A stretch of 64,000 nt of DNA from Achromobacter deleyi (GTDB lineage Bacteria; Pseudomonadota; Gammaproteobacteria; Burkholderiales; Burkholderiaceae_B), in NCBI RefSeq assembly GCF_016127315.1, contig NZ_CP065997.1, positions 5,456,001-5,520,000 on the forward strand, read 5' to 3'. This document shows, one piece after another, positions 4,399-57,436 of this stretch. Both the position numbers and the translations under genes were made by a program. Numbering within the stretch: position 1 is the first letter of the stretch; every line of letters starts with the position of its first letter. Under the pieces are notes generated by a model, which was not told the DNA's origin, did not search any database, and saw nothing but the letters and a program-made list of their open reading frames with translations.

Positions 4399-7324
4399 TC
4401 TTCACCGTCATTGCGGAACCGCCCGCGGCCGCTTCCACCGCGCAGCTGACGCACACGCTCTGCGGGAACTGCGGGAACGGATACGGCAATTGGTCCGGCC
4501 CGGCGAACTGCTTGTTGCCGGTCTTGACATCGATGCGCCCCGGCGCGGTCACGGTGATGTTGCCGCCCTCGAGCACGATGCTCGCGCCGGCCGCCGTGGC
4601 GATGCGGATGCGCTTGGGCGCGGCGTATTCCACCGCCGTATTGGCGCTGCCGATCGTGATGTCCTGCTGCGCCTGCACCCGCAGGATGTCGTGCTGCGCC
4701 TGAATGTCGACGTTGCCCTTGGCCGAGATCAGGTCCAGTCCAGACCCCGCCCCGCCCTGCTGCAGCCCCGCCACGATCCCCAGCCCCTGGCCCGTGTGCA
4801 GGCGCAGCGCGCCCATCACCGCCAGGTTCTGGTCCTTGCCCGAGGACCAGTGCACCGCCTCGCCGGCCGTGTACTGCAGGTGCTGGCCGGCGATCTGCGC
4901 CAGGCCCGCGCGCGCCGCCATCAGCACCACCGGATCGGTGGGATGCGCCACCTTGCCTTGCGCCGCATCGGTATGCTTGGCCGAGGCGTCGCCGAGCGCG
5001 CCATCCACGCTCGCGCCCGCCACCGTGCCCGAGACCGCCCGGTGCATCGCCGCCAGCGGCGCCTTGTCGCCATCGAGCGCGCTGGCGCCCGGACCGCGCG
5101 TGCCCTGCACCGTCGCCAGCCGCAGCCCCTGGTGCGCGCCCACCACGCCATCGAGCGAACGCGCCATCTGCTCGGTCTGGCTGGCCAGCGCCTGCACCCC
5201 GGCCGCATCGCCGATGGCGCTGGCATTACCGCTGGTGGCGGTATAGGTGCTCAGCAGCACGCCCGCGCCGCCTCGCACCGCGCCGTAGCCGTCGGTGCGC
5301 AGTTCAGCTCCCAGGCCGCGCAGGCCGCCGCGGTAGTTGCCGGCCTGGTGGATCAGGTGGCCCAGGTTCAGCTCGCTGGCCTGCGCGCTGCTCTTGACCT
5401 GCATGCGCAGTTGGCCGTCGGTGTCGTCGAACACGATCTGGTTGTAGCCCGCGCCGCCGAACTCCTTGCTCTTGAAGCCGCTCAACGCGGCCGCGTTGCG
5501 GTGGTTCTCGTCGCCGCCGGCCGCGCCGTGCCAGGCCGGCGCGTTGCCCGAGGCCAGGTTGGCCTGGGCGCTGGGCGCGTTGTCGCGCGCGGCGGCATAG
5601 ACCTGCGTCTCGGCCTTGCCGCCCTGGCGTCCGCCCGGCGTGGCGGGCGTGCCGCCTTCGCCGCGGCCGTTGTACAGCGCGCCCACCACGATGGGTTGGT
5701 CGATGTCGTCGTCCAGGAAGCGCACCAGCACCTCCTGGCCGATGCGCGGCACGAAGCTGATGCCCATGCCCGCGCCCGACTGGCGCTGCGCCACCCGCAC
5801 CCAGCGGCTGGCGGCCTCGCCCTCGGCGCCGCCGGCCTGCCAGTGGAAGCGGATGCGCACGTCGCCGCGCTTGTTGCGCAGGATCTCGTCATGCTCTTTC
5901 GGTTGCGTGCCGCCCTCGGCGTCGGTGACCACCGCGGTGTGCACGCCGTGCACCGACGGCGCCCCCGTCAGGCGCGCGCCGCGCTGTTGCGGCAACGCGG
6001 GCCGCCAGGGCCGGTCACAGCGCACCGCCTCGAAGCAGTTGGCGTAGCCGACCTCGCGCGCCTTGGCCAGCACGGCCGGATCAGCGGATTGCGACGCCTC
6101 CGCCGGCAATCGGCCAGCCAGCAATCCGTCCGTGACGGCGTCATCCGATGCGGGATCGGCCATGCCGCCGCCAAACCCGGCGTGGTCCACGGCCTCGCCG
6201 TCCAGCGTCAGATACGCATCCAGCCCGCCCAACCGCTGCGCCAGCGAAGCCTGGGTTTCCGGAGGCAAGTTGTTGATGCCTACGTGCTCGATCCAGTCCA
6301 GCGCAAAGACCGGCTCGAAGCCGGACTCGCCCGAGGGGCCCAGCGACGACAGGTCCTGCAGCGTGAAGCGCGTGCCCGAGCGGAACGTGCGCACCACCCC
6401 GCGGCCCGCGAAGGTCTCGGCGCGGGCGCGCACGGCCTCGCGCGCCAGTTCCGCCTGGCGGCGGGCCTGGGCCTCGTCGGCAAAGCCGCCATGGCCGGCA
6501 ATCTCGTACCAGTCCAACCCGGCCGCATCGTCCTGTCCGCTGGCCGCGTTGACCGGCGCCTGCGCGGCCACGGCGCGCTTGCCGCTGTCGTGCCAGCCCA
6601 GCACGGTGATGCTGTCCGGCGTGCGGCGGCGCTGGCGCACCAGCGCCTGCACGGTGTCGCGCGATTCGGTCGCGGCGGCGCGCTGGAAGCGGATGCCGCC
6701 ACCCGCGGACTCGGCGTCCTCGGCCAGGTTGCGGCTGTCGGCGAACAACTGCACCACATGGCGCGCGGGCACGCTTTCGTCTTCCAGCACGGTCCAGCCC
6801 AGGCCGGCCTCGGCCAGCAGGCGCATCAGGAAGTCGTAGTCGGTTTCGCGGTATTGGGTGGTGTAGGGACGCGGCGCCAGGTCGGCCAGCGCGCCTTCGA
6901 CGTCGGCCGCGATGCGGTAGACATAGCCCTCATAGCTATCGAGCACATGGCGCACGATGTCCAGCACGGCCTTGCCCTCGAACACGCGGCTGGCGCGCCG
7001 CTGCGTGGCCAGCCACAGCCACGGCGCCACGGTCAGCCGGTAGCGCGCCAGGCCGGCGTCGCCCGACAGCAGCTCGGCCTCGCGGATCACGCCGCTGCGC
7101 GCGGCCTGGCTGCCGTCGGCGCGCGTGGTCCACAAGGTCACCGGGCGCGAGATCATGTCCTGCAGCGACAGGCCGGCATTGTCCGACAGCGCCACCACGC
7201 GCAACTGGCCCACGCCGGAAAGCGCCTCGCGCGCGATCCAGCCCTCCACCTGCAAGGACGCAAGCGCGCCCTCGCCCTGCAGGCGATAGAGCCGCGAATC
7301 GGAATTGAGCAGGCTGGCGCTCAT
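4391..7324 (-). CDS. vgrG: Type VI secretion spike protein VgrG with C-terminal DUF2345 extension
   Basis: A 977-residue VgrG. Residues about 20-350 form the gp27-like phage hub region with the conserved YRETDYDFLMRLLAEAGL segment at 158-175. Residues 455-555 form the gp5-like OB-fold, with RGDVRIRFHW at 486-495, RIGQEVLVRFLDDDIDQP and VVGALYNG. The C-terminal third has the repeated beta pattern of DUF2345, ending near 950 with ITVTAPGRIDVKTGNKQF. No enzymatic C-terminal domain is evident, so it probably acts as spike and carrier for the separate Tle1 cargo encoded downstream. No other type VI structural genes are in the window, so this is an orphan vgrG-effector island served by a machine encoded elsewhere. 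Confidence 0.95.
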   Translation of the reverse strand: MSASLLNSDSRLYRLQGEGALASLQVEGWIAREALSGVGQLRVVALSDNAGLSLQDMISRPVTLWTTRADGSQAARSGVIREAELLSGDAGLARYRLTVAPWLWLATQRRASRVFEGKAVLDIVRHVLDSYEGYVYRIAADVEGALADLAPRPYTTQYRETDYDFLMRLLAEAGLGWTVLEDESVPARHVVQLFADSRNLAEDAESAGGGIRFQRAAATESRDTVQALVRQRRRTPDSITVLGWHDSGKRAVAAQAPVNAASGQDDAAGLDWYEIAGHGGFADEAQARRQAELAREAVRARAETFAGRGVVRTFRSGTRFTLQDLSSLGPSGESGFEPVFALDWIEHVGINNLPPETQASLAQRLGGLDAYLTLDGEAVDHAGFGGGMADPASDDAVTDGLLAGRLPAEASQSADPAVLAKAREVGYANCFEAVRCDRPWRPALPQQRGARLTGAPSVHGVHTAVVTDAEGGTQPKEHDEILRNKRGDVRIRFHWQAGGAEGEAASRWVRVAQRQSGAGMGISFVPRIGQEVLVRFLDDDIDQPIVVGALYNGRGEGGTPATPGGRQGGKAETQVYAAARDNAPSAQANLASGNAPAWHGAAGGDENHRNAAALSGFKSKEFGGAGYNQIVFDDTDGQLRMQVKSSAQASELNLGHLIHQAGNYRGGLRGLGAELRTDGYGAVRGGAGVLLSTYTATSGNASAIGDAAGVQALASQTEQMARSLDGVVGAHQGLRLATVQGTRGPGASALDGDKAPLAAMHRAVSGTVAGASVDGALGDASAKHTDAAQGKVAHPTDPVVLMAARAGLAQIAGQHLQYTAGEAVHWSSGKDQNLAVMGALRLHTGQGLGIVAGLQQGGAGSGLDLISAKGNVDIQAQHDILRVQAQQDITIGSANTAVEYAAPKRIRIATAAGASIVLEGGNITVTAPGRIDVKTGNKQFAGPDQLPYPFPQFPQSVCVSCAVEAAAGGSAMTVKNA

Positions 7325-43092: not shown

Positions 43093-44379
43093 CTAGCCCG
43101 GGCAGCCCGCGCCCACCCGCGATGCCGGCAGCGGCGTATCGCCGCTGGTGTTGCCCGCATGCTTGCGGATTCGCTCCGCCAGCTCCGCCGATGGCTTCTC
43201 ATACCCATAGCAATACGGCGGCGTCGGCGCGGCCTCGGGGCGATAGTCCTGCAACACGGGCTTCGCGTCCCCCAGATAGAGATTGTCCTTCAGGCGCAGG
43301 AACGCCTTGAAGTCGCGCGTATAGCCGTGCACGGCCTTCAGGTTCTGGTAGGCGCCCTCGTCCGAGGCGCCGTTGTCCAGCGCGCTGCGCTTGGCGGCCG
43401 TGGGGATATAGCGGCAGTAGTTCACCTTCACCCCTTCGACCGTGGGGAAGAACTCCGGCTCCACGCATTGGCGCTTCGCATCGTTGTTGAAGATATTGCC
43501 CTCGACCAGCGCCTTGGCCTCCAGGCTGAAGCTCATGCCGTAGAAATCCCAGTTCTCCAGCAGGTTGTTGAACAGATGGAACGTGCCGAACTGCCCGCGC
43601 GGATTGCGCTGCACGGTGTTGAAGAAGTAGTTGTGATGCAGCGTCACCCGTGCAATCGAATCACGTTCGTAGTTCTCGAACAGGTTCTTCGAGGTGATGT
43701 TGTTGAGCAGCATGACCTTGTTCGAGTTGTGGAACTTGGTCCAGGAGATGGTGACGTCGGTGGAGCCGTTCTTGACGTTGAGCAGCCGGTCGGACATGCG
43801 CGACAGGTCCATGTGGTCGACCCACACGTCGCGGCTGTCGTTGGCGATGTTCACGGCCTGCGTCAGCCGGTTCAGGCGGCCGTCGATGGTCAGGTGCGTG
43901 AGGATGACGTTCTTGCTGCCATACACGCCCAGCCCGTCGTCGATCAGGGCCACATGCTTGCCGCGGCCGTCGATCGTGGTGTTGGACGGCACCCGCAGCT
44001 GCGAGTCCAGCACGATCGTCATGTCCGACGCAAAGCGGATCCAGGTCGGCCCCTTCTTGGCCTGCGCCAGCGCCGCGCGCAACGTGCCCGGCCCGGCGTC
44101 CTGGTCGGAGGTGACCTCGATGAACCTGCCGCCCAGGCCGCCCGTGGCGCGCGCGCCATAGCCCTCGCGCTGCTGCAGCAGCTCGGAGACGAAGGGGCAG
44201 CGCTCGTCCGGACTGGCGCAGGATTCACTGGCGGCGGCCGCGCCGCCGTACAGCAGGCCCAGCGCGGGCAGCCACGCCAGCGCGCGCAGCAGCGCGCGAT
44301 AGGCCGGCCCGGCGCGCTTGCGACGCGGCCCCCTGCCCGCCGCCCCTGCCGTTGAATTCGTTGCTGCTCTCATGGACAT
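43093..44379 (-). CDS. vexL: Periplasmic Vi-polysaccharide lyase, VexL-like (pectate lyase fold)
   Basis: A 428-residue exported parallel-beta-helix lyase. Signal region about 26-50 ends in GGAAAA. The pectate lyase (PL1-like) core shows VWVDHMDLSR at 185-194, a VTLHHNYFFN block at 245-254 and RNPRGQFGTFHLFNN at 258-272, matching the RxPxxR-G-H-x-x-N-N active-site pattern with Arg258 and Arg261. Position after vexE in a Vi operon, together with the published VexL of Achromobacter denitrificans, a periplasmic Vi depolymerase, makes this the likely identity. It probably cleaves retained or mis-exported polymer. It starts 7 bases after vexE. Confidence 0.85.
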   Translation of the reverse strand: MSMRAATNSTAGAAGRGPRRKRAGPAYRALLRALAWLPALGLLYGGAAAASESCASPDERCPFVSELLQQREGYGARATGGLGGRFIEVTSDQDAGPGTLRAALAQAKKGPTWIRFASDMTIVLDSQLRVPSNTTIDGRGKHVALIDDGLGVYGSKNVILTHLTIDGRLNRLTQAVNIANDSRDVWVDHMDLSRMSDRLLNVKNGSTDVTISWTKFHNSNKVMLLNNITSKNLFENYERDSIARVTLHHNYFFNTVQRNPRGQFGTFHLFNNLLENWDFYGMSFSLEAKALVEGNIFNNDAKRQCVEPEFFPTVEGVKVNYCRYIPTAAKRSALDNGASDEGAYQNLKAVHGYTRDFKAFLRLKDNLYLGDAKPVLQDYRPEAAPTPPYCYGYEKPSAELAERIRKHAGNTSGDTPLPASRVGAGCPG

Positions 44380-44386
44380 TCACTCC

Positions 44387-46318
44387 CTAACGCTGCGCGG
44401 ACCGATCCGCGGACTGCACGTGGCGCCAGATGCCGCCACTCAGGCGCAGGTTCTCCGGCGGACCGGCCACGTGCGCCCTCAGATGCTTGAAATACGCCGC
44501 CTGCCAGCGCGCCGCATACGTATCGGCGTCCTCGCCCGGTTCCACGGCGGGCAGCATCTCCAGCGTGTAGGCCACCCGGCCGTTCTCCCAGCGCGGCGTG
44601 TAGAACACCGACGGCACGCCCTGGCGGTGCGCCAGGTGGGCCGCGAAGCTGGAATAGGTCACCGCCTGCCCTTCGAAGACGGTGCGCGGCGCGGCGGGGT
44701 TGGCGGCGCCGTCCACCGCCAGGCACAGCACATTGCCCGAGGCCAGCGCGCGCATGCAGGCCTTGGCGACCTGCGCTTCGGTCTGGTCGGCGGTCGAAAT
44801 CAGGGCGGCGGCATAGCTGCTCTGGGCGATGCTGGGCGCGGTCGCCAGCCAGCGCGAGGGAATGCCCAGCAGTTCCAGCGCCATCAGGCCGGCATACATG
44901 GGCCCCACGTGCGCCGTGGCCACCACCACGCCGCGGCCGGCGGCCAGCAGCGGCGCGAAGAAACGCTCGCCGGTGTCCAGTTCGCCCAGCACCTGCATGG
45001 CTTGCTCGACGCTGTCCTCGCGGCATTCGAGCCAGTCGAACAGCAGATGGTCCACCTGATGGCCCCAGCGCGCGCGCCGTTCCCATTGCGCGCGGTCGGC
45101 CGTGGCGTCGTCTCGCATCGACCAGGCCCAGTCCAGGCGCGCCTGCGGGATCGGGGCGGTGTCCAGTTTGTGTTCCAGCTGGTCCAGGGCCTGCTGGAAG
45201 GTCGCCGGCAGCGCCTGCCCGCGTTGCGCGACGTAGCGCTCGAACAGCGCCTCGGCCTCCTGCTTGCGTCCCGCCTGCGAGAGCGCGCCAATGGCCGCGC
45301 GCTGCCAGAGCCGCTTGTCGGGCGACTTCTCGACCAGCTGCAGCATCTGGTCGGCGGCTGCCTCGTATTGCAGCGTGTAGCGCAGCGCGCGCGCGTACAG
45401 GGCGCGGGTCTGCTCCAGTTCCGGCGCCAGTTCCATGGCCTGGCGCAGCGGCGCCACGGCCTCCTTGTAGCGACCGGCGCGCAGCAAGGTTTCGCCGTAC
45501 AGCGTCAACAGCCGCACGTCGGCCGGCGCCGCGCTCAAGCCCGCCTCGAAATGCGCCGGGGCGTGCAGCTTGCGGTCGTCGTCGGTGGCGCGGCGCAGGT
45601 GCGCCAGCCCCAGCGACGCGCGCAGCGCCGGGGCATCGTGCCCCGCCTCCAGCGCCCCGTTGCCCAGCAGGATCGCCGCCTCGACCCGGTCGTCATCCAG
45701 CAAGGCGCGCACGGCCACCGTCGCCACGCGCGCGTTCGGCAGGTCAGCCGCCTGCAAGGCCATGGCGACGCCGGCCGCCTCCGCCACGTCGCCGTTGCGC
45801 GAATGGGCCAGCATCCACCAATGCGCATCGCCGGGGTTGGCCAGCGCCAGGGCGGCGCTCTGGCGCGCGACGTCGGCGGCCTGCGGGATGCGTCCGGCCT
45901 GCACCCGCAGCTGTATCCGCGCGGCCTGCAATGCCCCGTTGTCGGGCGCGATGGCGGCGGCGACATCGGCCTGGGCGATGGCGCGGTCCCACTGCTCGGT
46001 GCGGCCCAGCAGGCTGGCGAGCAGACGGCGGTCGTCGGTGCGCGCCGGATAGGCGTCGACCAGCCGCTCAAGCGCGGCGATCGCCGGCTCCAGCCGGCCC
46101 ACCTTCACGAATGGCGACACCAGCAGGCGACGCGCGTCGCGCCAGCCCTCCTCCACCCGCGCCAGCGCCGGTCCGAGCCCGGCCATCGCCTGCAGCGGGT
46201 CGTCCGCCTCCAGGATCTGCTTGATGACCGCGCGCAGGTGGCTGACGCCATCGCTCGGCGCGGCTTGGGCGGCGGCCGGCGCGACGGCGCCGGGGCGTTC
46301 TATCGTGGTATCAACCAT
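44387..46318 (-). CDS. vexE: VexE-like TPR/lipid A-type acyltransferase fusion, capsule lipid-anchor enzyme
   Basis: A 643-residue protein. Residues about 60-370 are tetratricopeptide-like helical repeats (for example ADVRLLTLYGETLLRAGRYKEA). The C-terminal part (about 440-620) is a lysophospholipid/LpxL-type acyltransferase domain with GRGVVVATAHVGPMYAGL at 461-478 (His470), LCLAVDGAANP at 531-541 and FEGQAVTYSSFAAHLAHRQGVPSV from 548. In S. Typhi, VexE is linked to the lipid at the reducing end of Vi. No signal or membrane span is seen, so it acts at the cytosolic face. It overlaps vexD by 8 bases. Confidence 0.85.
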   Translation of the reverse strand: MVDTTIERPGAVAPAAAQAAPSDGVSHLRAVIKQILEADDPLQAMAGLGPALARVEEGWRDARRLLVSPFVKVGRLEPAIAALERLVDAYPARTDDRRLLASLLGRTEQWDRAIAQADVAAAIAPDNGALQAARIQLRVQAGRIPQAADVARQSAALALANPGDAHWWMLAHSRNGDVAEAAGVAMALQAADLPNARVATVAVRALLDDDRVEAAILLGNGALEAGHDAPALRASLGLAHLRRATDDDRKLHAPAHFEAGLSAAPADVRLLTLYGETLLRAGRYKEAVAPLRQAMELAPELEQTRALYARALRYTLQYEAAADQMLQLVEKSPDKRLWQRAAIGALSQAGRKQEAEALFERYVAQRGQALPATFQQALDQLEHKLDTAPIPQARLDWAWSMRDDATADRAQWERRARWGHQVDHLLFDWLECREDSVEQAMQVLGELDTGERFFAPLLAAGRGVVVATAHVGPMYAGLMALELLGIPSRWLATAPSIAQSSYAAALISTADQTEAQVAKACMRALASGNVLCLAVDGAANPAAPRTVFEGQAVTYSSFAAHLAHRQGVPSVFYTPRWENGRVAYTLEMLPAVEPGEDADTYAARWQAAYFKHLRAHVAGPPENLRLSGGIWRHVQSADRSAQR

Positions 46319-47600
46319 GGCGCAATCCCCTCAGCAAGGCCATCGCCGCGCGCAGGACGAACATGAGCACGAAGCCCAGCGCCAGCGCCTGCAGCAGCAG
46401 CACCCCCGTGCGCGGGCTGCTGGGCCGGTCGGTGGAGACCGGCTGCGCGATGATGGACAGGTAACGCTGCAGGCGCAGGGCGTCCGTCACGGCCTGCTGG
46501 TAGGACTGCTGCGCCAGCGTCAGGTTCGAATCGGCGAAGGCCTGGGTATTGCGCAGCGCCTCGTACGATTTGAGTTGCTTCGCTTCCGTGTTGCCTTCGC
46601 CGCTCAGGCGCTGGCGCACGGCGGCGAGCCGTTTCTTCAAGGCCACGACCTGCGTTTCGGCCGGCTTGAGCATGAAGTGGTCCTTGTTGTTCAGCGCGCG
46701 GATCTTGTCCAGGTTGATCTGGGCGGTGCTCAGCTCCGCTTCCAGCTGGCTGGACAGGTTCAGCAGCATCGCCACCGTGGCCGTCGGGTCGATATTGCCG
46801 TGCGTGGTGCGCCATGTCGTCAGCGCTTCGCGCGCGCCCAGCGCCTTCTGCTCGGCCTGCTTGACCGACTCCTCGCTGACCCTCAGTTTGTCCGCCACGC
46901 CCTTCTCGTTCATGGAACTGACGAATTCTTCCGCCAGGCCGATCAGGGCCTTGGACAGGGTTTCCGCGTCTTCGGGCGAATAGGCGCGCACGCGCAGCAC
47001 GTCGATCTGCTCCAGCGCATTGAAGGAGACCTGCACCGAGGCCCGGTAGGCGCGATACAGATCGTCCTCGCTCGAGTCCTCCGACAGATGGTTGGCCGGA
47101 TCCAGGCCGGTATTGAGCAGGTAATGGCGCAGGCCGACCTTCTTGTCCAGCTGCCGCATGCTGTCGCGCGACCTGAGGAAGTCGCTGACCGCCCAGCCGT
47201 CGACGAAGCCGCCCAGCATGCCCCCCGAGTTGCCCGTGGTGAGCAGGCTGGCCGCCATGGCGCCGCCGCCCTGCTGGCCGGACCCCGATTGCACGAAGAA
47301 GCGCGATTCGGCTTCATAGCGCGGCGTGGCGATGCAGAGCACGTAGACCAGCGCCAGGGCGACCGGGGCGACGACGATGAAGGCATTGACCCAGCGCCGG
47401 CGGCGACGATCATCCAGCGCCGATTGCCGCTCGCGGCGCCGGCGCTCGATCTCGGAGCCGCTCTCAGAAGCCGAGCTGGCCCTCGTCGAAGCCGCCGAAA
47501 ACGTCGTCGCCTGTTCCGGATTCGCTTCGTGATCGTCGCGGGGGGAACTTGCTGATGCACTGGTCGAGGTCGTCTTCGATGCGGAGTGCGCTTCGTTCAT
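46311..47600 (-). CDS. vexD: VexD/KpsE-like capsule export inner-membrane protein
   Basis: A 429-residue polysaccharide co-polymerase-type (PCP-3) protein spanning the periplasm. The cytosolic N-tail (1-70) is Ser/Arg-rich; a membrane segment (about 72-92, FIVVAPVALALVYVLCI) is followed by the KpsE start PRYEAESRFFVQSG. Long coiled-coil helices lie in the middle (VSEESVKQAEQKALGAREAL, ALKKRLAAVRQRLSG), and a second membrane segment is near the C-terminus. It links the ABC transporter to the VexA channel. ATG 47600 has an AAGGG ribosome site and no later start exists before the membrane segment, so the gene truly overlaps vexC by 137 bases. Confidence 0.88.
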   Translation of the reverse strand: MNEAHSASKTTSTSASASSPRDDHEANPEQATTFSAASTRASSASESGSEIERRRRERQSALDDRRRRRWVNAFIVVAPVALALVYVLCIATPRYEAESRFFVQSGSGQQGGGAMAASLLTTGNSGGMLGGFVDGWAVSDFLRSRDSMRQLDKKVGLRHYLLNTGLDPANHLSEDSSEDDLYRAYRASVQVSFNALEQIDVLRVRAYSPEDAETLSKALIGLAEEFVSSMNEKGVADKLRVSEESVKQAEQKALGAREALTTWRTTHGNIDPTATVAMLLNLSSQLEAELSTAQINLDKIRALNNKDHFMLKPAETQVVALKKRLAAVRQRLSGEGNTEAKQLKSYEALRNTQAFADSNLTLAQQSYQQAVTDALRLQRYLSIIAQPVSTDRPSSPRTGVLLLQALALGFVLMFVLRAAMALLRGLRHG

Positions 47601-48177
47601 AAATCAGGCCCTTCAGGCAATAGTCCGCCAATTGATTCTGGCGGTAACTGGAAAGAATGAGCGTCCTGCCGATCAGCCGTTCTTCGAACAGCGCCAGCCA
47701 GAGACGGGTGAAACGGCAGGGTTCGAAGGGAATGGCCCCTTCGATCACGTAGACGTCGAACGCTGGCGCCAGGGCCAGCGCGAACGAAAACTCCTGCCGG
47801 GCGAACAGCGGCCAATGCTCCATCGGCCGGGGCAGGCTCTTGGGGTCGGTGATCAGGTCGGCCACCAGTTCATAGGTGGCATCGGCGTCCAGCTCGTACA
47901 TCTGGCTCACCAGCTCGATCATGTTCAGGCCGCTGGCCTTGCCGCGGATGAAGCCCTGCCGGCCGATCGCCCAGGACACGTTGCCGTCGTGCTGCACGAA
48001 GCCCTGGCGCGGCGGCCGCAGGCCGCACAGCAGATCGATGATCTGGCGGTGCAGTTCCGGCGCCGGCGACAGCAAGGCATAGCGCCCGACGGGAATGTCC
48101 AGGTGCGCCTGGGCCAGCAGCGCCTGCCGGTTGCCGAAGGCCAGGGGTTCATCCGTCACGCCATTGAGATGAATCAT
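47464..48177 (-). CDS. vexC: VexC/KpsT-like capsule export ATPase homologue lacking ATPase motifs
   Basis: A 237-residue protein aligning by eye with KpsT-type ABC ATPases over its length (IPVGRYALLSP against IPSGKSVAFIG, GNVSWAIGRQGF against KTISWPVGLAGGF, FDVYVIEGA against FDYYIVDEV). The P-loop GRNGAGKST is replaced by SPAPELHRQ (37-45). The signature SSGM-type block reads PLFARQ (123-128), Walker B ends in IEG (145-147) without the Asp-Glu pair, and the switch His is Ser (LSSY, 175-178). The reading frame stays open and the shape is kept, so it is a divergent intact gene rather than a frameshift. It may be structural, non-hydrolysing, or paired with another ATPase. Confidence 0.8.
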   Translation of the reverse strand: MIHLNGVTDEPLAFGNRQALLAQAHLDIPVGRYALLSPAPELHRQIIDLLCGLRPPRQGFVQHDGNVSWAIGRQGFIRGKASGLNMIELVSQMYELDADATYELVADLITDPKSLPRPMEHWPLFARQEFSFALALAPAFDVYVIEGAIPFEPCRFTRLWLALFEERLIGRTLILSSYRQNQLADYCLKGLIYERSALRIEDDLDQCISKFPPRRSRSESGTGDDVFGGFDEGQLGF

Positions 48178-48186
48178 CGTCGTTCC

Positions 48187-49527
48187 TCACATGGGCTGGA
48201 TATTGGGACGGGCCAGCCGCTCGGCCGCCAGCGCGACCACCATCAGGAAAACCAGGCTGGTCAGGAAATACCCCAGGCTCGCGTCCTGCGACGTGTAGGC
48301 GTCGAAGTAGGCCGAGCGCAACAACTGCATGCCATGCGAGAACGGCAGCCACAGCATCCAGGGCCGCAATTGCTCGGGCAGCTGCTCCGAGACGAAGAAG
48401 ACCCCCGAGAAAATCTGCAGGAAGCGCTCGATCACGGGCGCCAGCCGCAGGAAGAAGTGCCAGAAGGTCGCGATCGTGCCGAACAGCAGGCCCATCGCCG
48501 CGGCGCAGCACGCCATCAACACCACGTACAGCATGAAGCCCGGCCAGCTCTTGGGCAGCGTGATGAGATCGAGCGCGTGGCCGGCGGTGATCAGGACCAC
48601 GAACACCACCAGGTACACCGACACGTACAGCAGCGCCTGCACCAGCGCGCACATCAAGGGCGACACGCCCTGAAAATTCAACAGGCCGCGCGCCGATACG
48701 TAAGCCGTGCTGCTGCGGAAGATGATCTGGCGGAACATGATCCAGGTCGTCGCGCCCAACAGCGAGAAGGTCTGCACGTCCATCCCCAGGATGTAGTGCG
48801 TGCCCATCAGGATGTACAGCGACGAAATCAGCGTCAGCAGCACGACCGGGCCCACGAACGCCCACAACAGGGCGATCCGGCTTTCGCCATGCATCACATG
48901 CAGCTGGTAGACGAACAGCGCCAGCAACGTGCGTCCACCCGGCCAGCCGCGGCCGGCGATGTGCGGGCGATGCCCGGCATGCAGCCCGCGCACCCTATCC
49001 CGCAGGATCTCCAGGTCGCCGGCCTCGCCCGCGGGCAGTTCCATCTCCAGCGCGATATCGTGGCGCGAGGCATGGCGACGCGCATCGCGCGCCTCGTCCT
49101 GCCTGCGCCGCTGCTCGCGCCGCTCCTGCGCCTGGGCCAGGCGCTGATCCTCCGCCACCAGCCGGGCGGGCATGTAGCCTGGCGCGAACACCTCGACGCC
49201 AGCGCGGATGTCCTGCTCCAGCAGGCGCACGATGATGCGCAGGCGCCGCCGCGAAAAGTCGGCCAGCGACTCATCGACCTTGGCGCGCGCGATCTCCGCG
49301 TCCAGCTCGGCCTGCACCGCCTCGTAGACCGCCCGTCGGGCGGCCACCGAGTCGTGCGGCTCGCCCTGCAGGCGCGCCAGCAATGGCTTGAGCAGCACCG
49401 CCGGCTCCGCCTTGGCCTCGAACAGCGCGGCCGGGTCCAGGCGCCAGGCGGCGACGCCCGATCCCACCGCGTAGCTGCTGTCCTTTCTCCGCGAACGCCA
49501 ACCCTTGATCCGATCCTCGTTGCTCAT
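48187..49527 (-). CDS. vexB: VexB/KpsM-like capsule ABC permease with long N-terminal extension
   Basis: A 446-residue protein. The last 245 residues are an ABC-2 permease with six hydrophobic segments and the KpsM pattern: ESRIALLWAFVGPVVLLTLIS, TTWIMFRQIIFRSS, RGLLNFQGVSPLMCALVQALLY, and the end SQDASLGYFLTSLVFLMV. Typical KpsM/VexB proteins are about 260 residues; here about 200 extra charged, helical, cytosolic residues precede them (coiled-coil-like AEDQRLAQAQERREQRRRQDEARDARR region near 127-152). The ATG at 49527 was chosen; a GTG at 49533 overlaps the vexA stop and is equally possible. It begins at the vexA end and lies 9 bases before vexC. Confidence 0.88.
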   Translation of the reverse strand: MSNEDRIKGWRSRRKDSSYAVGSGVAAWRLDPAALFEAKAEPAVLLKPLLARLQGEPHDSVAARRAVYEAVQAELDAEIARAKVDESLADFSRRRLRIIVRLLEQDIRAGVEVFAPGYMPARLVAEDQRLAQAQERREQRRRQDEARDARRHASRHDIALEMELPAGEAGDLEILRDRVRGLHAGHRPHIAGRGWPGGRTLLALFVYQLHVMHGESRIALLWAFVGPVVLLTLISSLYILMGTHYILGMDVQTFSLLGATTWIMFRQIIFRSSTAYVSARGLLNFQGVSPLMCALVQALLYVSVYLVVFVVLITAGHALDLITLPKSWPGFMLYVVLMACCAAAMGLLFGTIATFWHFFLRLAPVIERFLQIFSGVFFVSEQLPEQLRPWMLWLPFSHGMQLLRSAYFDAYTSQDASLGYFLTSLVFLMVVALAAERLARPNIQPM

Positions 49528-49532
49528 CGACA

Positions 49533-50693
49533 CTACTGGCTGATGCCGTTGGAGGCGCCGGAGCCGGAGTTGGAGTCGATCGCCCGGGTGGCGCTGAAGC
49601 CGGCGCTCATGGTCACGCGGAACGCGGACAGCACCTTCTGCACCTGGGTGAACGGCGCGTCCGAGATATAGATCGCCTGGCCTTCATGCACGGTGAATTC
49701 GCGGGCCAGCGCCACCTGTTCCGGGCGCGTGAGATCGAACTGGTACACCACCGGCAGCAGGTCGGGCTTGCCCTCCACGCCGGCCTGCGCGGGCGTGAAC
49801 AGGAACACCGAGCGCGGGTCCGCGGTCTGGTCATCCAGGCCCTTGGAGTCGGCCAGCGCGTCCAGCACGCTGTAGTTGCGCTTGCTGATGGCCACGCGGC
49901 CCTGGTTGCCGGCCGCGCCCAGCACCGTCAGGAACTCGCGCGACTCGTACGCGGTGATGACGTCGCCCGAGCGCAGCAGGATGTCGTTGTTCTGGTTGCG
50001 GTAGATGTCCGACAGGCGCACCGAGGCGACCTTGTTGTCGCGCCGCAGGCTGATGACGAGCTGCTCGGGATTGGTCTGCACCGGCGCCGCCTGCGCCAGC
50101 GCGCTGCTCAGCCGCTGGGCGGTCTGCGTGATGGGATACATGCCCGGCTTGGTCAGGTTGCCCTGCACCGTCACCATCTGCCCGCGCGCGTCGGCGGCGC
50201 GCGTCACGCTGACGTCGGCGCCGGCCACCAGCCGGCTCAGGCGCGCCACGATGGCGTCATGCAGCTGCCCCAGCGTCATGCCGCCGGCCTTGAATTTGCC
50301 GAGGATGGGAAAGGACACGTTGCCATTGCGGTCCAGTTCCTGGTTGCCCAGGTCGCTCACGCCGGTCGGGTCCGCCGCGAACACGCCCAGCCCGCCGCGT
50401 TCCCACACTTTCACGTTGATGCCATCGCCCGGCACCAGGCTGTCGAAGCCGGCCTGCGTCAGGTCGCGGTAGCGCACGGGAAAATCGGAGACCTCGGGCA
50501 CCCGGCTCGCGCGCGCGAGTTCGCGCGACGCGGGCATCACGACGACATCCTTGTCGTCGTGGGCGCCTGTCATCTCGCCCAACATGGGGCCGGAGCGCGG
50601 CAGCTGGCAGCCGCTGAGCATGAGTACGGTGATCAGCAGCAGGGCCGGCGCCGCAATGCGACGCGGGCTCGCCGCCGGGACGTTCATTTGCAT
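49533..50693 (-). CDS. vexA: VexA/Wza-like polysaccharide export outer-membrane lipoprotein
   Basis: A 386-residue outer-membrane polysaccharide export (OPX) protein. The lipobox is LSGC with Cys29. The poly-export domain starts DSLVPGDGINVKVWERGGLGVF and continues with LDRNGNVSFPILGKFKAGGMTLGQLHDAI. SLBB-like repeats follow (MVTVQGNLTKPGMYPITQT; FLTVLGAAGNQGRVAISKRN). It forms the outer-membrane channel for the capsule together with VexD. It begins 42 bases after tviE and its stop abuts vexB. Confidence 0.9.
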   Translation of the reverse strand: MQMNVPAASPRRIAAPALLLITVLMLSGCQLPRSGPMLGEMTGAHDDKDVVVMPASRELARASRVPEVSDFPVRYRDLTQAGFDSLVPGDGINVKVWERGGLGVFAADPTGVSDLGNQELDRNGNVSFPILGKFKAGGMTLGQLHDAIVARLSRLVAGADVSVTRAADARGQMVTVQGNLTKPGMYPITQTAQRLSSALAQAAPVQTNPEQLVISLRRDNKVASVRLSDIYRNQNNDILLRSGDVITAYESREFLTVLGAAGNQGRVAISKRNYSVLDALADSKGLDDQTADPRSVFLFTPAQAGVEGKPDLLPVVYQFDLTRPEQVALAREFTVHEGQAIYISDAPFTQVQKVLSAFRVTMSAGFSATRAIDSNSGSGASNGISQ

Positions 50694-50735: not shown

Positions 50736-52799
50736 TCAGGCCTGCATCAGACGCATGGGGGGTAGCTCCATGCTCGCGTCGTTCTCCGACTCGGGCATGA
50801 GCGGCATGCACAGGCTCAGGAACTTGCCCAGCATCGCCTCCAGCGAAAACAGGGTCTGCGCCCGCTCGCGGCTTTGGGCCTTCAGGCTTTCGTCGGCGCG
50901 CACCCGGTCCACGATCGAGGCGACCTTGTCGCAGGCCTCGTGCAGGTCGGGATGCTCGACGTCGCCCAGCAGGTGCCCCGTCTGGTCTTCCTCGAAGCAC
51001 TCGCCCGCGCCGCCGGCCGGCGTCGAAACGACCGGCACACCCAGCAACTGGGCTTCGATCAGCACGTTGGGCAGGCCTTCGTAGCGCGACAGCAGGACCT
51101 TGGCGTCCATCTGCGAATACCAGTAGCCCACGTGATTCGACAAGCCGACCAGCAGCAGCCGGTCCGTCACGCACAGGTCTTGCGCCAACGCCACGATGTT
51201 GTCGTGCAGCCGGCCGTCGCCGACGATGACGAAGCGCGCCTGCGGACGCTGTTTCAGGTACATCGCCGCGAGCTTGATCCACAGTTGTGGCCGCTTGTCG
51301 GGCTCCAGGCGAAACACGCCGCCGATGGTCTCGGTGGCGTCGGCCGTGCTTTCCTGGAAGGCCAGCCACTTTTCCTTGTCCGCCGCCGCGGCGTCGGTGG
51401 CCAGGTCCGGCACGCCGTTGTAGAGCACGTGGAAGCGCACGATGGGGATGCCGAGCCATTCCGCGTAGGCCTCGGCCGCCTTGCGGCTGTTGCTGACGAA
51501 ATGCACGCCGGGCACCTTGGCCAGGGCCTGGTAGAGCTCGGGATACTCTTCGCGGAAGCGGTCCTTGCGGATGTTCGGCGGCAGGCCGCGGAACACCAGG
51601 TGGATGGTCGGCGCGCCGGCCAGCAGCGCCGCCAGGGCGCCGAACAGGCAGGTGCCGTCCTGCCACAGGCTCACCACGTCGAAGGTGCTGGCGCGCAGGA
51701 CCGGCGCCAGCCGCGTCACGCCATAGTGCACCGGCGGCGGCAGCTGCTCCAGCAGGCGACCCAGGCTGCCATCCGGCACGGATTGATGGGCCACCGAGAT
51801 CGCCGGCAGCTTGTTGATTTCCGTGACCGGAATGCGGGCCTTGACCAGCACCGACAGGAAGAAATCCAGACCCTGCTTCTTGGTGGAGCCGGGCGGCTCG
51901 GTGTGCTGCTTGACCAGCACTTCCACCTTCTCCGGCTTCATCGGCGCATCGGCGGGGCCCGGGCTGGGCGTGTCCGACATGCGAGCCAGTTCCCCGGCCA
52001 GGCGCGTCAGCTGGCGCTCGGCGCCGCCCGGTCCCAGGCTGCCCGTCACCAGCGCGACCGAAACGGGTTTCTCGGGCGCGTACTCCGGGATCTGGCGGTC
52101 GCGGAAATGCAGGATGGCGTGCTTCATCGACACGATCCTGATGTCCTTGCCGGCCAGCGCGGTTTCGGGCTCCAGGCGCTGGTAGAAGGCATAGTCGCTG
52201 GCCAGGCCGTTGGCCAGTTCCGCCGCCTTGCTGCCCGGCGCGAGGTGCTTGGCCACGGGCGCGATGACCTCGAACGCGTCCGCCAGCAGGCCGCGCTTGC
52301 GCAGGCGCTTGGCGAACTCGACGCGGATGTTGCGGTCCGTGTGCTGCAGGATCAGCCGGCGGAACAGCTCGTCCGACTGCTCGTAGGCGCGGATATCGCT
52401 CAGCAGCTTGGCGCGGGCGAACAGCCGGGCGGGGTTATCGGTGGACTCGGGCAGGTGCCGCTCGACCAGGGACAGCGCGTCCTCGAGATGACGCTCCTTG
52501 ACCAGGCGAGTGGCGCGATAGCGCACGATCTCCAGGTCATCGGGGCATTCCCGCAGCAGCTTGGCCCATTGCTCGGACATGCCCTCGTTCAGGCCCGCCG
52601 CCTCTTTCAGCCTGAGCAGCAGGAAGCGGACCTTGGAGTCGGCCATGTGGCCGCGCGCCAGCGTTTGCGCGTCCGCCAGATTGGCCTGCGCGACCTGGAC
52701 CCGCACCGAGGCCGCCACGATTTCCTCCAGCCGGCCCTGGACCGCCTGGAGGTCGGACGACGCGGTGTTCTCGCGCTCGGTGATCAGGGGCGGATTCAT
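50736..52799 (-). CDS. tviE: TviE-like glycosyltransferase (GT4 type) of Vi polymer synthesis
   Basis: A 687-residue cytosolic protein. Residues about 40-210 are helical repeats (TPR/HAT-like). From about 245 there is a GT-B glycosyltransferase with a glycine-rich acceptor loop SLGPGGAERQL (254-264), the donor side with FRLEPDKRPQLWIKLA (496-511) and VIVGDGRLHDNI, and the retaining GT4 motif E-x7-E in YEGLPNVLIEA (Glu574, Glu582). TviE is thought to polymerise the Vi backbone. The start gives a 4-base ATGA overlap with tviD. It is about 100 residues longer than S. Typhi TviE (by recall), from the N-terminal repeats. Confidence 0.83.
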   Translation of the reverse strand: MNPPLITERENTASSDLQAVQGRLEEIVAASVRVQVAQANLADAQTLARGHMADSKVRFLLLRLKEAAGLNEGMSEQWAKLLRECPDDLEIVRYRATRLVKERHLEDALSLVERHLPESTDNPARLFARAKLLSDIRAYEQSDELFRRLILQHTDRNIRVEFAKRLRKRGLLADAFEVIAPVAKHLAPGSKAAELANGLASDYAFYQRLEPETALAGKDIRIVSMKHAILHFRDRQIPEYAPEKPVSVALVTGSLGPGGAERQLTRLAGELARMSDTPSPGPADAPMKPEKVEVLVKQHTEPPGSTKKQGLDFFLSVLVKARIPVTEINKLPAISVAHQSVPDGSLGRLLEQLPPPVHYGVTRLAPVLRASTFDVVSLWQDGTCLFGALAALLAGAPTIHLVFRGLPPNIRKDRFREEYPELYQALAKVPGVHFVSNSRKAAEAYAEWLGIPIVRFHVLYNGVPDLATDAAAADKEKWLAFQESTADATETIGGVFRLEPDKRPQLWIKLAAMYLKQRPQARFVIVGDGRLHDNIVALAQDLCVTDRLLLVGLSNHVGYWYSQMDAKVLLSRYEGLPNVLIEAQLLGVPVVSTPAGGAGECFEEDQTGHLLGDVEHPDLHEACDKVASIVDRVRADESLKAQSRERAQTLFSLEAMLGKFLSLCMPLMPESENDASMELPPMRLMQA

Positions 52800-55276
52800 G
52801 CGGCCTTCCTGCGGTTGGCCTTGTCGATCCACACCAGGCAGCGCTGGATGTAGTGATCGAACTGGGCCGGATTGTCGGAACGTTCCTTGAGCGCGCGCCA
52901 GTAAGGCAAGGCCTGTTCGAAGCGGTGCAGGCGCATGGCGCCGACGGCGGCCAGGCGCAGGCCGATGGGGTCGTCGGAGACCAGTTGCAGGATGCGCTCG
53001 CCCAACGCCAGGCGCTCGGTGGTGCTGGACGATTCCAGCGCGCGCGCCTCGGCGTACAGGACGGCCAGGATGCGCCGCTTCTCGTGATCGACTTCCGTCA
53101 TCCCCGGCCACGATTGCGCGACACGCTCCAGCAGAATCCAGGCCGCCTTGGGATCACCGGCGGACAGGATTTCCCGGGCGCCGCGGATGGCGCGCGGGCC
53201 GAGCCTGCCGAGCTGGCGCTCGGCCTCGTCGCGGGCGCTCTGGTCGGCCGACGCATGCGCCAGGACCATCTTGTAGGCGTCGATCGCCTCGCCGAACCAG
53301 CCGCCGTTGAACGCCACGCGGGCGAAGTGCAGCTGCGTGCTGAACGGCGCCGACTCGTTGGCGGCGGCCTGCTCCAGGTGGCGCATGGCGGTCTGCTTGT
53401 CGCCCAGCGCGTCGGCCGCGCGGCCACGCATGGCGTGCAGTTCGGGGAACTCGACCTGGGTGTCGAGCGCGATGTCGGTCAGGTCGATCACCTCCTTGTG
53501 GTTGCCCGCCACCAGCGCGGCCCGCGCGCCCAGGCGCATGGCGCGTTCGAAGGCGCGCTGCGCGCGCACGCCGGCCAGGGCATCGGGGTTGAGCAGGCGA
53601 TGCGCGCAGATGCGTTCGGCGGCATCGCGCAGGCGGCCTTCCTCCAGCGCCTGGGCGCCCTCCTCGGCCCATGCCGCGGATTGCGTAAGCAGCCAGGCGG
53701 AAATGTCTTCCTGCTCGCTGTCGGCCAACTTGCACGACATGGCCAGCGCCGCCGCGGCCATGATGCAGCCGCGCCACGTGGCTTCCTTGATCAACTCCAG
53801 CGCCTCGACATCCTTGAGCGCGGGCGACTCGGACGCCAGCGCGCGCAGCCCGGCGCGGTCGCCGGCGATCAGGCGGTCGCGCCACAGCATCGCGAAACTG
53901 CGGCCATGCGACGGGATCGCGGCGCGCACTTCATGGACCCAGCGCAGGGCCGCTTCCATGTCGCTGCCGGCCTGCAGCAGCGACAGCACGGTGTCGGCCG
54001 CCTCGGTGGCGGTCGCGTCCTGCGGCGAGGAAATGCGGAACAGCTGCTTCCAGTTGCCCAGCGCCTCGTCCACGAAACCCAGGTGACCGGCGGAGATCGC
54101 GGCGATGCGCACGATTTCCGGGGTCTCGATTTCGTCGCCCAGCAGGCCCGCGGCCAGCGAGTGCGCCACCTCATGGCGGCCCAGCTTGAACTGGTTGCGC
54201 ATCAGGATCTGCTCGGCCTTGCTGCCGGTGGCCAGCGTGCCGTCCGCGCTGCCCAGCAGCGCCAGCGACCCTTCGTAGTCGCCCAGCTCTTCCTGGATCC
54301 GCGCAAACAGCAGCGTGTGGTCGGGCAGGCCCGGATGACGGCGCAGCACGTCGCGCAGGCGGCGCGAGGCTTCGCGCAGGTCGCCCGAATCCCAGATCTT
54401 CTCGATGCGTTCGGCGCTTTCGTCGGCGCTCAGCTTGGGCACCGACGGCTGCGGCGTGGACGCGCTCATGCGCGGACGCACGAAGGTCTTGAACCACTCG
54501 GTGTACAGGCGCTCGGCGAACAGCGGCGTGTAGTGCGTCAGGTCGAGCCCGCCGTCTTCCAGCGCGTCGGCCTGGCCGATCTTGTTCATCAGCGGCGTCG
54601 GGTCATAGCACGGCACGCCGATGCGCTGCGCGCTGGCGGTCACCGCGGCGATCAGCTGGGCGCGCTGTTCGATCGGCACATTGTCGGGCGTCATGGCATT
54701 GACGTGCGTGACGAACACGACCTTGTCCCGCCCCAGCAGGTCGACCAGCTCGTGCATCTGCTGCTCGATTTCCTCATCCGTCTGTTCGCGCTTGACGATG
54801 CGGGCGAGCAGCTCGCGGTTGTCCGCGGACAGGGTCTTGAAGACGGGATCCTGGTCCAGCCACGCGCGCCGCTCGGCGAGCCGTTCGTCGCTGGCCTGAG
54901 ACCAGAACGCGCGGGTCCGGGCGCGGTCGGCGAAGAACTCGCTGAAGAAGCGCACCAGGTAGTTGGACTGGATGGGATGGTTGCCGACGGTCAGCAACTT
55001 GCGCGAGGACAGCTCGACCATGTACAGGTCGGCCGGCTTGTGCGTGCCGCGGCGGGCCTGCTCGCCGTTCGACGGACGGAAGATCACGCGTTGCACGTCG
55101 GTGGGAACCTCGGCCTGGCCGAACATGAAGCGGGCCTGCTGCAGCGCCTCGGCGCTGGTGTGCACGAAACCGTAATTGCGACCGAGCTGCTGCTTGATCG
55201 GGTAGCGTCCCACTGCGTCGCGCAGCGGTGTGTGGATACGGCAGGTGCCAATCGGAGCGATGGTAAAGGCGGTCAT
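52796..55276 (-). CDS. tviD: TviD-like protein: SGNH-type acyl-transfer domain plus TPR repeats
   Basis: An 826-residue protein, close to the roughly 830 residues of S. Typhi TviD, which is needed for O-acetylation of Vi. Residues 1-265 look like a GSCFA/SGNH hydrolase fold: block I IGTCRIHTP (Gly10-Thr11-Cys12), a block III-like VFVTHVN at 187-193, and block V DLTHY (Asp245, His248). Residues about 285-815 are helical repeats. The nucleophile position in block I is a Thr-Cys pair rather than Gly-Asp-Ser, so the catalytic residue is uncertain. It overlaps tviE by 4 bases and lies 43 bases after tviB. No signal peptide: cytosolic. Confidence 0.8.
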   Translation of the reverse strand: MTAFTIAPIGTCRIHTPLRDAVGRYPIKQQLGRNYGFVHTSAEALQQARFMFGQAEVPTDVQRVIFRPSNGEQARRGTHKPADLYMVELSSRKLLTVGNHPIQSNYLVRFFSEFFADRARTRAFWSQASDERLAERRAWLDQDPVFKTLSADNRELLARIVKREQTDEEIEQQMHELVDLLGRDKVVFVTHVNAMTPDNVPIEQRAQLIAAVTASAQRIGVPCYDPTPLMNKIGQADALEDGGLDLTHYTPLFAERLYTEWFKTFVRPRMSASTPQPSVPKLSADESAERIEKIWDSGDLREASRRLRDVLRRHPGLPDHTLLFARIQEELGDYEGSLALLGSADGTLATGSKAEQILMRNQFKLGRHEVAHSLAAGLLGDEIETPEIVRIAAISAGHLGFVDEALGNWKQLFRISSPQDATATEAADTVLSLLQAGSDMEAALRWVHEVRAAIPSHGRSFAMLWRDRLIAGDRAGLRALASESPALKDVEALELIKEATWRGCIMAAAALAMSCKLADSEQEDISAWLLTQSAAWAEEGAQALEEGRLRDAAERICAHRLLNPDALAGVRAQRAFERAMRLGARAALVAGNHKEVIDLTDIALDTQVEFPELHAMRGRAADALGDKQTAMRHLEQAAANESAPFSTQLHFARVAFNGGWFGEAIDAYKMVLAHASADQSARDEAERQLGRLGPRAIRGAREILSAGDPKAAWILLERVAQSWPGMTEVDHEKRRILAVLYAEARALESSSTTERLALGERILQLVSDDPIGLRLAAVGAMRLHRFEQALPYWRALKERSDNPAQFDHYIQRCLVWIDKANRRKAA

Positions 55277-55319: not shown

Positions 55320-56597
<1,278 letters not shown>

Positions 56598-57436
56598 GGG
56601 GGACCTCACTGTTTTCGTCGTGTCGAAGACACTAGAAACCGACACCCGGGCACGGCGAAAACAATACGGAATCGCATGGTTTTCTTCTGCCCGGGGTGGA
56701 CGCGTTGTTCAAAAATGATTACATCTCGACACCCCGTCATACGAGCGGGTAGCGAGCCAACGAATCGTAGGCCGGGCAGACAGCAAACTTTTTTCTAAAA
56801 GTTTTCGATGCTATGGAAATAAGTCGCCGAGGTCGTAATAAACGTGGGGAAATCCCTGAAATAATCTCTTTTCCCATACAAATGGAAATAAATGAGATCG
56901 TTTGTCTTGTTAGCAAATATGTAAAGTCGTTTTCTTATCTTGGCTTAATAAAACTGCAAGGAATGAGCATTCGTTCACGGGCAACAGTAAGCCCCCTGGG
57001 AAAATGTCCTTATTGCAACTTCAAGTCACGGATCGCGTCAGAATCACCGCGGAATATCGGCCCAGGGGCGAATCGGAAAAGCATTCCGCCAATTGACCTG
57101 GCCGCATGAACATGGCATGCGCGCCCCACGCGTAAATGCCCAAAGCGCGCCGTGCGCCAAGCGGGAAAATCTGTCCTGATATTGAAATGACTTCCACCGA
57201 TGACAGGCCGGTGGATTACACAATTGAACAAGTGCGGCGCATGATGGACGCCCGTCCAAGGCTGAATACGCCCTGCTCCCGGGATAATCGCGCCCTGCCC
57301 GCGGGAAAATCACGCCCCTGCCTGCGGGAAAATCGGATTCAACGGGGAAAAACCGCGAATTCATCCCCTCCCCCGACAACGGCAATATGTCGGCGGGGCT
57401 CCTCGCGCACCGGCCCGCCCCCATGCGGGCCGCATG
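56598..57436. other. Gene-free, AT-richer region upstream of the capsule operon
   Basis: About 840 bases separate tviB from the dps terminator. The part 56770-57000 is strikingly AT-rich for this genome (long A/T runs such as CTTTTTTCTAAAAGTTTTC) and probably includes the capsule promoter and possible binding ground for xenogeneic silencers. A 98-codon ORF (56813-57109, plus) has no ribosome site and no recognisable product. No tviA-like regulator or tviC epimerase is encoded here. From about 57250 the sequence repeats short purine-rich GCGGGAAAAT-like words without a clear function. Confidence 0.6.

Follow-up and report, generated by a model that had tools for sequence, protein, structure and literature searches.

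A VexC subunit without recognisable ATPase motifs, a probable pseudo-ATPase, in the Vi-type capsule exporter of Achromobacter deleyi and its relatives

The 64,000-nucleotide stretch of the Achromobacter deleyi genome analysed here (contig NZ_CP065997.1; hereafter the window) contains a Vi-type capsule locus, a minus-strand run of nine genes encoding TviB, TviD, TviE, VexA, VexB, VexC, VexD, VexE and a pectate-lyase-like protein. Our subject is VexC, the homologue of the capsule export subunit KpsT, an ATP-binding cassette (ABC) protein, whose open reading frame (ORF) starts 9 nt past the VexB stop codon, with GAGGA preceding its ATG. An alignment of VexC with intact KpsTs of the same genus, in which no motif contains a gap, shows replacements at every nucleotide-binding motif (Table 1). 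The initial annotation of this DNA had noted SPAPELHRQ in place of the P-loop, and indeed no intact motif stands there in any of 226 distinct sequences of the family; its reading of a replaced ABC signature also holds, with WPLFA where intact KpsTs have YSSGM. Two further readings were only partly right or had to be corrected. VIEG was said to stand for Walker B: the catalytic Glu is absent from all 226 sequences, but the Walker B Asp position is kept conservatively (Asp in 95, Glu in 131). The residue at the H-loop His position, given as Ser, is Tyr178, and Ser177 aligns one residue before it.

Table 1. Genes of the Vi-type locus and former nucleotide-binding motifs of VexC, in window coordinates.
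Feature	Position	Strand	Evidence or remark
VexC-like probable pseudo-ATPase, 237 aa	47464..48177	-	Central finding; ATG start, no internal stops
Former Walker A, aa 37-45 SPAPELHRQ	48043..48069	-	GxNGxGKST in intact KpsTs
Former Q-loop region, aa 73-79 RQGFIRG, Gln to Arg78	47941..47961	-	Arg in 223/226 family sequences
Former ABC signature, aa 122-129 WPLFARQE	47791..47814	-	YSSGM to W122-PLFA
Former Walker B, catalytic Glu and D-loop, aa 143-153 YVIEGAIPFEP	47719..47751	-	DE to E146-G147; SVGD to I149-PFE
Former H-loop, aa 176-180 SSYRQ, His to Tyr178	47638..47652	-	His in 2/226 family sequences
VexB/KpsM-type permease, 448 aa	48187..49533	-	PF01061 31.9 bits; KpsM model 66.7 bits; structure model compared with KpsM 8tun_C
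VexB N-terminal extension, ~aa 1-195, predicted helical	48949..49533	-	41-member alignment; predicted structure model
VexA, outer-membrane export protein	49533..50693	-	NCBIfam VexA 171 bits
VexD, BexC/CtrB/KpsE-type co-polymerase	46311..47600	-	TIGR01010 205.6 bits; NCBIfam VexD 89 bits
VexE, acyltransferase for Vi lipid anchor	44387..46318	-	NCBIfam VexE 890 bits; His470/Asp536 present
Pectate-lyase-like protein, probable VexL	43093..44379	-	PF00544 81.8 bits; place in syntenic loci
TviE-like glycosyltransferase	50736..52937, start codon not settled	-	NCBIfam TviE 992 bits, above cut-off
TviD-like protein	52796..55276	-	NCBIfam TviD 264 bits
TviB-like nucleotide-sugar dehydrogenase	55320..56645	-	NCBIfam TviB 439 bits

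As the initial annotation had also stated, the frame is open over all 237 residues and the rest of the fold is recognisable, the predicted structure being that of an ABC nucleotide-binding domain (NBD) of the KpsT/Wzt type. A phmmer search against solved structures retrieved KpsT (8tsi_A, E 1.9e-12), with an alignment that begins at residue 46, directly past the former P-loop. VexC yields no Pfam match at E ≤ 1, and the Pfam domain ABC_tran (PF00005) was detected in none of 73 degenerate members scanned, compared with all seven intact KpsTs of the genus, which had been picked by their Walker A. The NCBIfam VexC model, with a cut-off of 313 bits, gives 12.5 bits for the window protein, and the intact KpsTs of the genus likewise fall below it, at 72–98 bits.

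The motif loss is a family-wide trait. A close VexC homologue (84–100% identity) is present in 38 of 43 genomes of the genus, and a scan of genome contigs yielded 56 named loci, all with an open VexC frame of 234–245 aa; their hosts include Achromobacter, Bordetella, Castellaniella, Parapusillimonas, Paraburkholderia, Caballeronia, Burkholderia, Candidimonas, Novosphingobium and Sphingomonas, with Erwinia coming from another homologue search. The window, these loci and 188 database proteins made up 245 rows, from which four fragments and 15 duplicates were removed to leave the 226 distinct sequences. The sole match to a Walker A regular expression in this set (P0170) falls at residue 190 and not in the P-loop. 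The initial annotation had reasoned that conservation of the loss across strains would support a real divergent subunit and that close relatives with normal motifs would speak against one: the loss is common to all 226 sequences, and neither a member with normal motifs nor an intermediate was found among the matches listed (the best 120 of 156, 213 and 188 in the homologue searches) or in the 56 loci. Genome G021 carries, in addition, a second and more distant Vi-type locus (L102) with its own degenerate VexC (62% identity), where VexE has 50% identity and one stop codon within the match.

For comparison, we used 22 distinct intact KpsTs. Intact KpsTs were chosen by the Walker A pattern, for which each of the 20 loci L105–L124 supplied a sequence, so that their Lys and glycine counts follow by construction. 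The catalytic Glu is present in all 22 and the H-loop His in 16; Ser replaces this His in the other six, and the Q-loop Gln gives way to Ser or Glu in seven. Because the His is missing in six of 22 otherwise intact KpsTs, it is the weakest of the criteria for a KpsT/VexC export ATPase. Intact KpsTs of other Achromobacter capsule loci (L095–L100, L103) belong to the same family as VexC at ~19–23% identity and carry both GxNGxGKST and the DE pair, neither of which is found in the window protein. The KpsT of one such capsule locus (L096 6613-7293, L100 6068-6748) has Walker A and DE intact and other motif residues lost, a milder loss.

Purifying selection on VexC is strong. Its median pairwise ratio of non-synonymous to synonymous substitution (dN/dS) is 0.109 over the first 190 codons, against 0.143 for VexB, 0.142 for VexD and 0.132 for VexA, as obtained by Nei-Gojobori counts on 153 pairs from 18 loci, taken as alternate members of a set of 35 from the Achromobacter/Bordetella group and its close kin. 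A pseudogene or a sequencing artefact, implying that the capsule is not exported here, would account for the lost catalytic motifs, yet with open frames in 56 of 56 loci, homologues in 38 of 43 genomes, this dN/dS value and near-invariant replacement residues we regard it as vanishingly improbable; sequencing error, frameshift or recent pseudogenisation, which the initial annotation had named as possible refutations, are themselves refuted by the frames, the homologues, the dN/dS and the motif loss in 226 sequences. In a tree built from 28 degenerate sequences, 22 intact KpsTs and 10 Wzt-like proteins (the last a label of ours, from length and coverage), the degenerate family occupies one side of a branch with support 100/100. 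The rows of the tree, and those of four of the alignments, were chosen by us. The branch that sets off the degenerate family is long (2.69 on one side of the root as drawn, 1.68 on the other), and a warning from the program says that long branches may join wrongly. Inside the family, Alcaligenaceae and sphingomonad rows mostly form separate groups.

The degenerate VexC goes together with the Vi system. Among 268 family genomes, it was found in 61 and VexE (E ≤ 1e-40) in the identical 61, G021 having two of each. Each of the five genomes of the genus that lack it (G007, G008, G023, G024, G039) has a KpsT match that scores 331 bits or more, and none has a VexE match; in the three stretches examined (G007, G023, G039), the intact KpsT is placed in a different capsule locus. 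Most Burkholderiales loci share the order TviB-TviD-TviE-VexA-VexB-VexC-VexD-VexE-VexL, apart from a few in which TviB or VexL is missing or moved, some with inserted genes and some cut by contig ends, and six sphingomonad loci retain VexA-VexB-VexC-VexD in a rearranged cluster. In all 56 loci, VexC adjoins a KpsM-type permease gene within the capsule locus. In one sphingomonad cluster with a degenerate VexC (L087), VexE and VexA are separated by a sulfotransferase-like gene (4829-6052; PF13469, 29.9 bits), a hint that the polymer may carry a different modification.

The permease itself is enlarged. VexB carries the ABC-2 membrane domain (PF01061, 31.9 bits against a cut-off of 26.9), and its structure model (pTM 0.55 for the whole protein) superimposes on the solved KpsM 8tun_C with a TM-score of 0.87 by target, the match being the part outside an N-terminal extension. 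This extension of ~195 aa contains invariant Arg and Glu positions in 41 sequences. VexB reaches at least 430 aa in 53 of the 56 loci; the remaining three are cut by a contig end (L045) or shorter (L059, L076). Five intact KpsMs of the genus, two of them confirmed as KpsM by model and three by position, measure 261–276 aa and are without the extension.

Measured against the NCBIfam models of the S. Typhi viaB locus, which has the same Vex and Tvi protein set, TviE passes with 992 bits (cut-off 733), while VexE stays below its cut-off (890 against 1200 bits) with a nearly full-length match in which the catalytic His and Asp are present. VexB scores 10.7 bits and is better fitted by the KpsM model; with VexB and VexC scores this small and strong ones for TviE, VexE and TviB, the exporter core has diverged from viaB far more than the synthesis genes. 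The initial annotation had called the set otherwise complete, which is true of VexA, VexB, VexD, VexE, TviB, TviD and TviE; for TviC, the 64-kb window holds no match to the model, and one of 482.7 bits (cut-off 760) lies elsewhere in the genome, at C1:2456969-2457973. This TviC-like epimerase lies far from the Vi locus, and in two Paraburkholderia loci (L075, L083) an epimerase follows VexE inside the cluster. The name VexL for the pectate-lyase-like protein is probable. VexC and VexD overlap by 137 nt (47464-47600) in different frames; with script-chosen starts, the overlap is 110–152 nt in 52 of 55 loci and 38–53 nt in three sphingomonad loci. The next alternative start of VexD is codon 87 (GTG), past the start of a hydrophobic stretch as judged by eye.

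The intact gene, the predicted KpsT fold, the lost motifs, the single divergent clade, purifying selection, the fixed operon position, the co-occurrence with VexE and the enlarged VexB together make it very probable that VexC is a conserved pseudo-ATPase retained for a structural or gating function. We infer from sequence that VexC no longer binds or hydrolyses ATP, and the initial annotation's view of a genuinely non-hydrolysing subunit is supported by the motif loss, the selection and the predicted fold; either consequence that it proposed, another ATPase for export or a scaffolding role, may apply. Since the residues for ATP use are lost and this loss is kept across many species, export is probably energised or gated by other means. 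Several observations weigh against this assignment. The P-loop Lys occurs at position 43 in one of the 226 sequences (P0167, which is without the P-loop glycines), Ser or Thr at position 44 in three, and the H-loop His at position 178 in two. Additionally, 15 of the 38 genomes with a degenerate copy also have a full KpsT (at least 240 bits), which might help in trans. The old motif positions are, as a set, not more conserved than the remainder of the protein (mean entropy 1.16 versus 1.38; 48 of 211 circular shifts as low), and a repurposed pocket is therefore unsupported.

Among the residues that are near-invariant in the degenerate family and absent from the intact KpsTs are R44, R54, R73, R78, R155, R179, W122, E129, P40 and P150; that the gained Arg residues cluster near the old motifs was noticed after the fact and is a lead only. 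Conserved basic residues at the former nucleotide motifs (His43-Arg44, Arg78, Arg179), along with Asp or Glu at the Walker B Asp position throughout, could mean that VexC still binds or hydrolyses nucleotide in an unusual way. This is highly improbable with the P-loop glycines, catalytic Glu and signature all gone and the P-loop Lys and Ser/Thr as rare as stated; moreover, in E. coli equipped with the S. thermodepolymerans machinery, changing the catalytic Glu of KpsT alone (E151Q) abolished secretion (PMC11041684). That KpsT is an active ATPase (PDB 8tsh, 8tsi, 8tsl, 8tsw), and the window VexC is without its catalytic Glu and Walker A.

The Arg residues at 44, 73, 78, 155 and 179, in or beside the former motifs, would also suit a sensor or regulator, whose altered pocket might bind an anionic ligand such as a polymer end or a nucleotide sugar and couple synthesis to VexB opening. 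In E. coli carrying S. Typhi viaB, insertions in vexB, vexC or vexD led to less Vi signal, from which the authors suggest feedback on synthesis (PMC3448643). Such a role is nevertheless unlikely in our judgement, given that the former ATP site is not specially conserved as a set.

A different alternative is a canonical ABC ATPase encoded elsewhere that energises VexB, either in place of VexC or paired with it, in which case the exporter would still run on ATP. We scored candidates with an intact-KpsT profile at a threshold of E ≤ 1e-25, taking 70 per genome of the genus and 150 of 331 in the window's genome, which is a single contig. The profile gave 241–400 bits for true KpsTs of the genus, 134–173 for Wzt-like proteins and 59.6 for the degenerate VexC. 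Besides the 15 genomes with a full KpsT, 14 of the 38 have a Wzt-like match only, and nine, including that of the window (G027 among them being 78% complete), have no match at the threshold among the candidates scored; the best in the window's genome reached 91.6 bits (1.7e-25). The claim that VexC is the only KpsT/VexC homologue hence stands for this genome within the candidates scored, among which a search for a second, dedicated kpsT came up empty. Nor is an ATPase hidden inside the locus, as the Walker A pattern is absent from all nine of its proteins. A tblastn search with the 22 intact KpsTs against the 56 loci and their flanks returned the degenerate VexC at every locus (56 of 56); the only other matches were weak ones in L067 (within a 638-aa ORF) and L072.

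With nine genomes lacking a match and 14 having a Wzt-like one only, a dedicated second KpsT is not the general answer. All 150 candidates scored in the window's genome are ABC ATPase matches, which makes at least 150 of them, and a distant ABC ATPase elsewhere in the genome is possible. Heterodimeric ABC exporters in which one nucleotide site is degenerate are known and set a precedent for a partner; they too contain a non-hydrolysing ABC domain, but keep one working site, whereas both sites of a VexC homodimer would be dead because the sole NBD of the locus is. On balance, we think such a replacing or pairing ATPase improbable.

Published work on these systems describes Vi assembly as ABC-transporter dependent and a Vi locus conserved in Bordetella and Achromobacter; A. 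denitrificans is a Vi producer whose VexE and VexL were used (all PMC9597891). In our comparison, the H466/D532 pair of that VexE matches the spacing of H470/D536 in the window. PMC3448643 presents S. Typhi VexC as the ATP-binding motor, and reports that a vexC insertion in viaB-carrying E. coli left Vi in intracellular inclusions. A tviC insertion in A. xylosoxidans reduced the lung burden, the mutant being undetected in blood (PMC10353400), and insertions in a Vi locus were found in another study (PMC9430717). The degenerate VexC form is present in one A. xylosoxidans record (L060). We found no report of VexC motif loss in the open-licence literature searched, and one may stand in Vi or Achromobacter papers outside it.

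Taking VexC as a pseudo-ATPase, we picture a KpsT-type NBD fold that partners the permease VexB and would serve beneath it as a structural or gating platform. The VexC dimer would probably be held together by its own conserved residues in place of ATP, and may perhaps offer a docking site for TviD or TviE. Least certain is the force: TviE could push the chain out as it polymerises it, or an ion gradient could supply the drive in place of an ABC power stroke. That no ABC ATPase at all drives export is slightly less likely than not; that polymerisation is the driving force we hold to be rather unlikely. A broader proposal, in which the whole clade works without ATP and a locked pseudo-NBD dimer with the enlarged VexB forms a passive or gated conduit for a chain moved by polymerisation or an ion gradient, is conceivable but somewhat doubtful.

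Judging by their sequences, these proteins define a clade in which ABC-type capsule exporters contain a probable pseudo-ATPase, so that an ABC domain has been conserved, probably as a non-enzyme, alongside an expanded permease. In the usual view, ATP hydrolysis in KpsT/VexC powers capsule export of this kind. If the broader proposal is true, an ABC-derived polysaccharide exporter would no longer be an ABC pump. A widespread natural version without a recognisable ATPase site is in any case a ready experiment on the task of ATP in this export, pushing the chain as opposed to only loading or gating.
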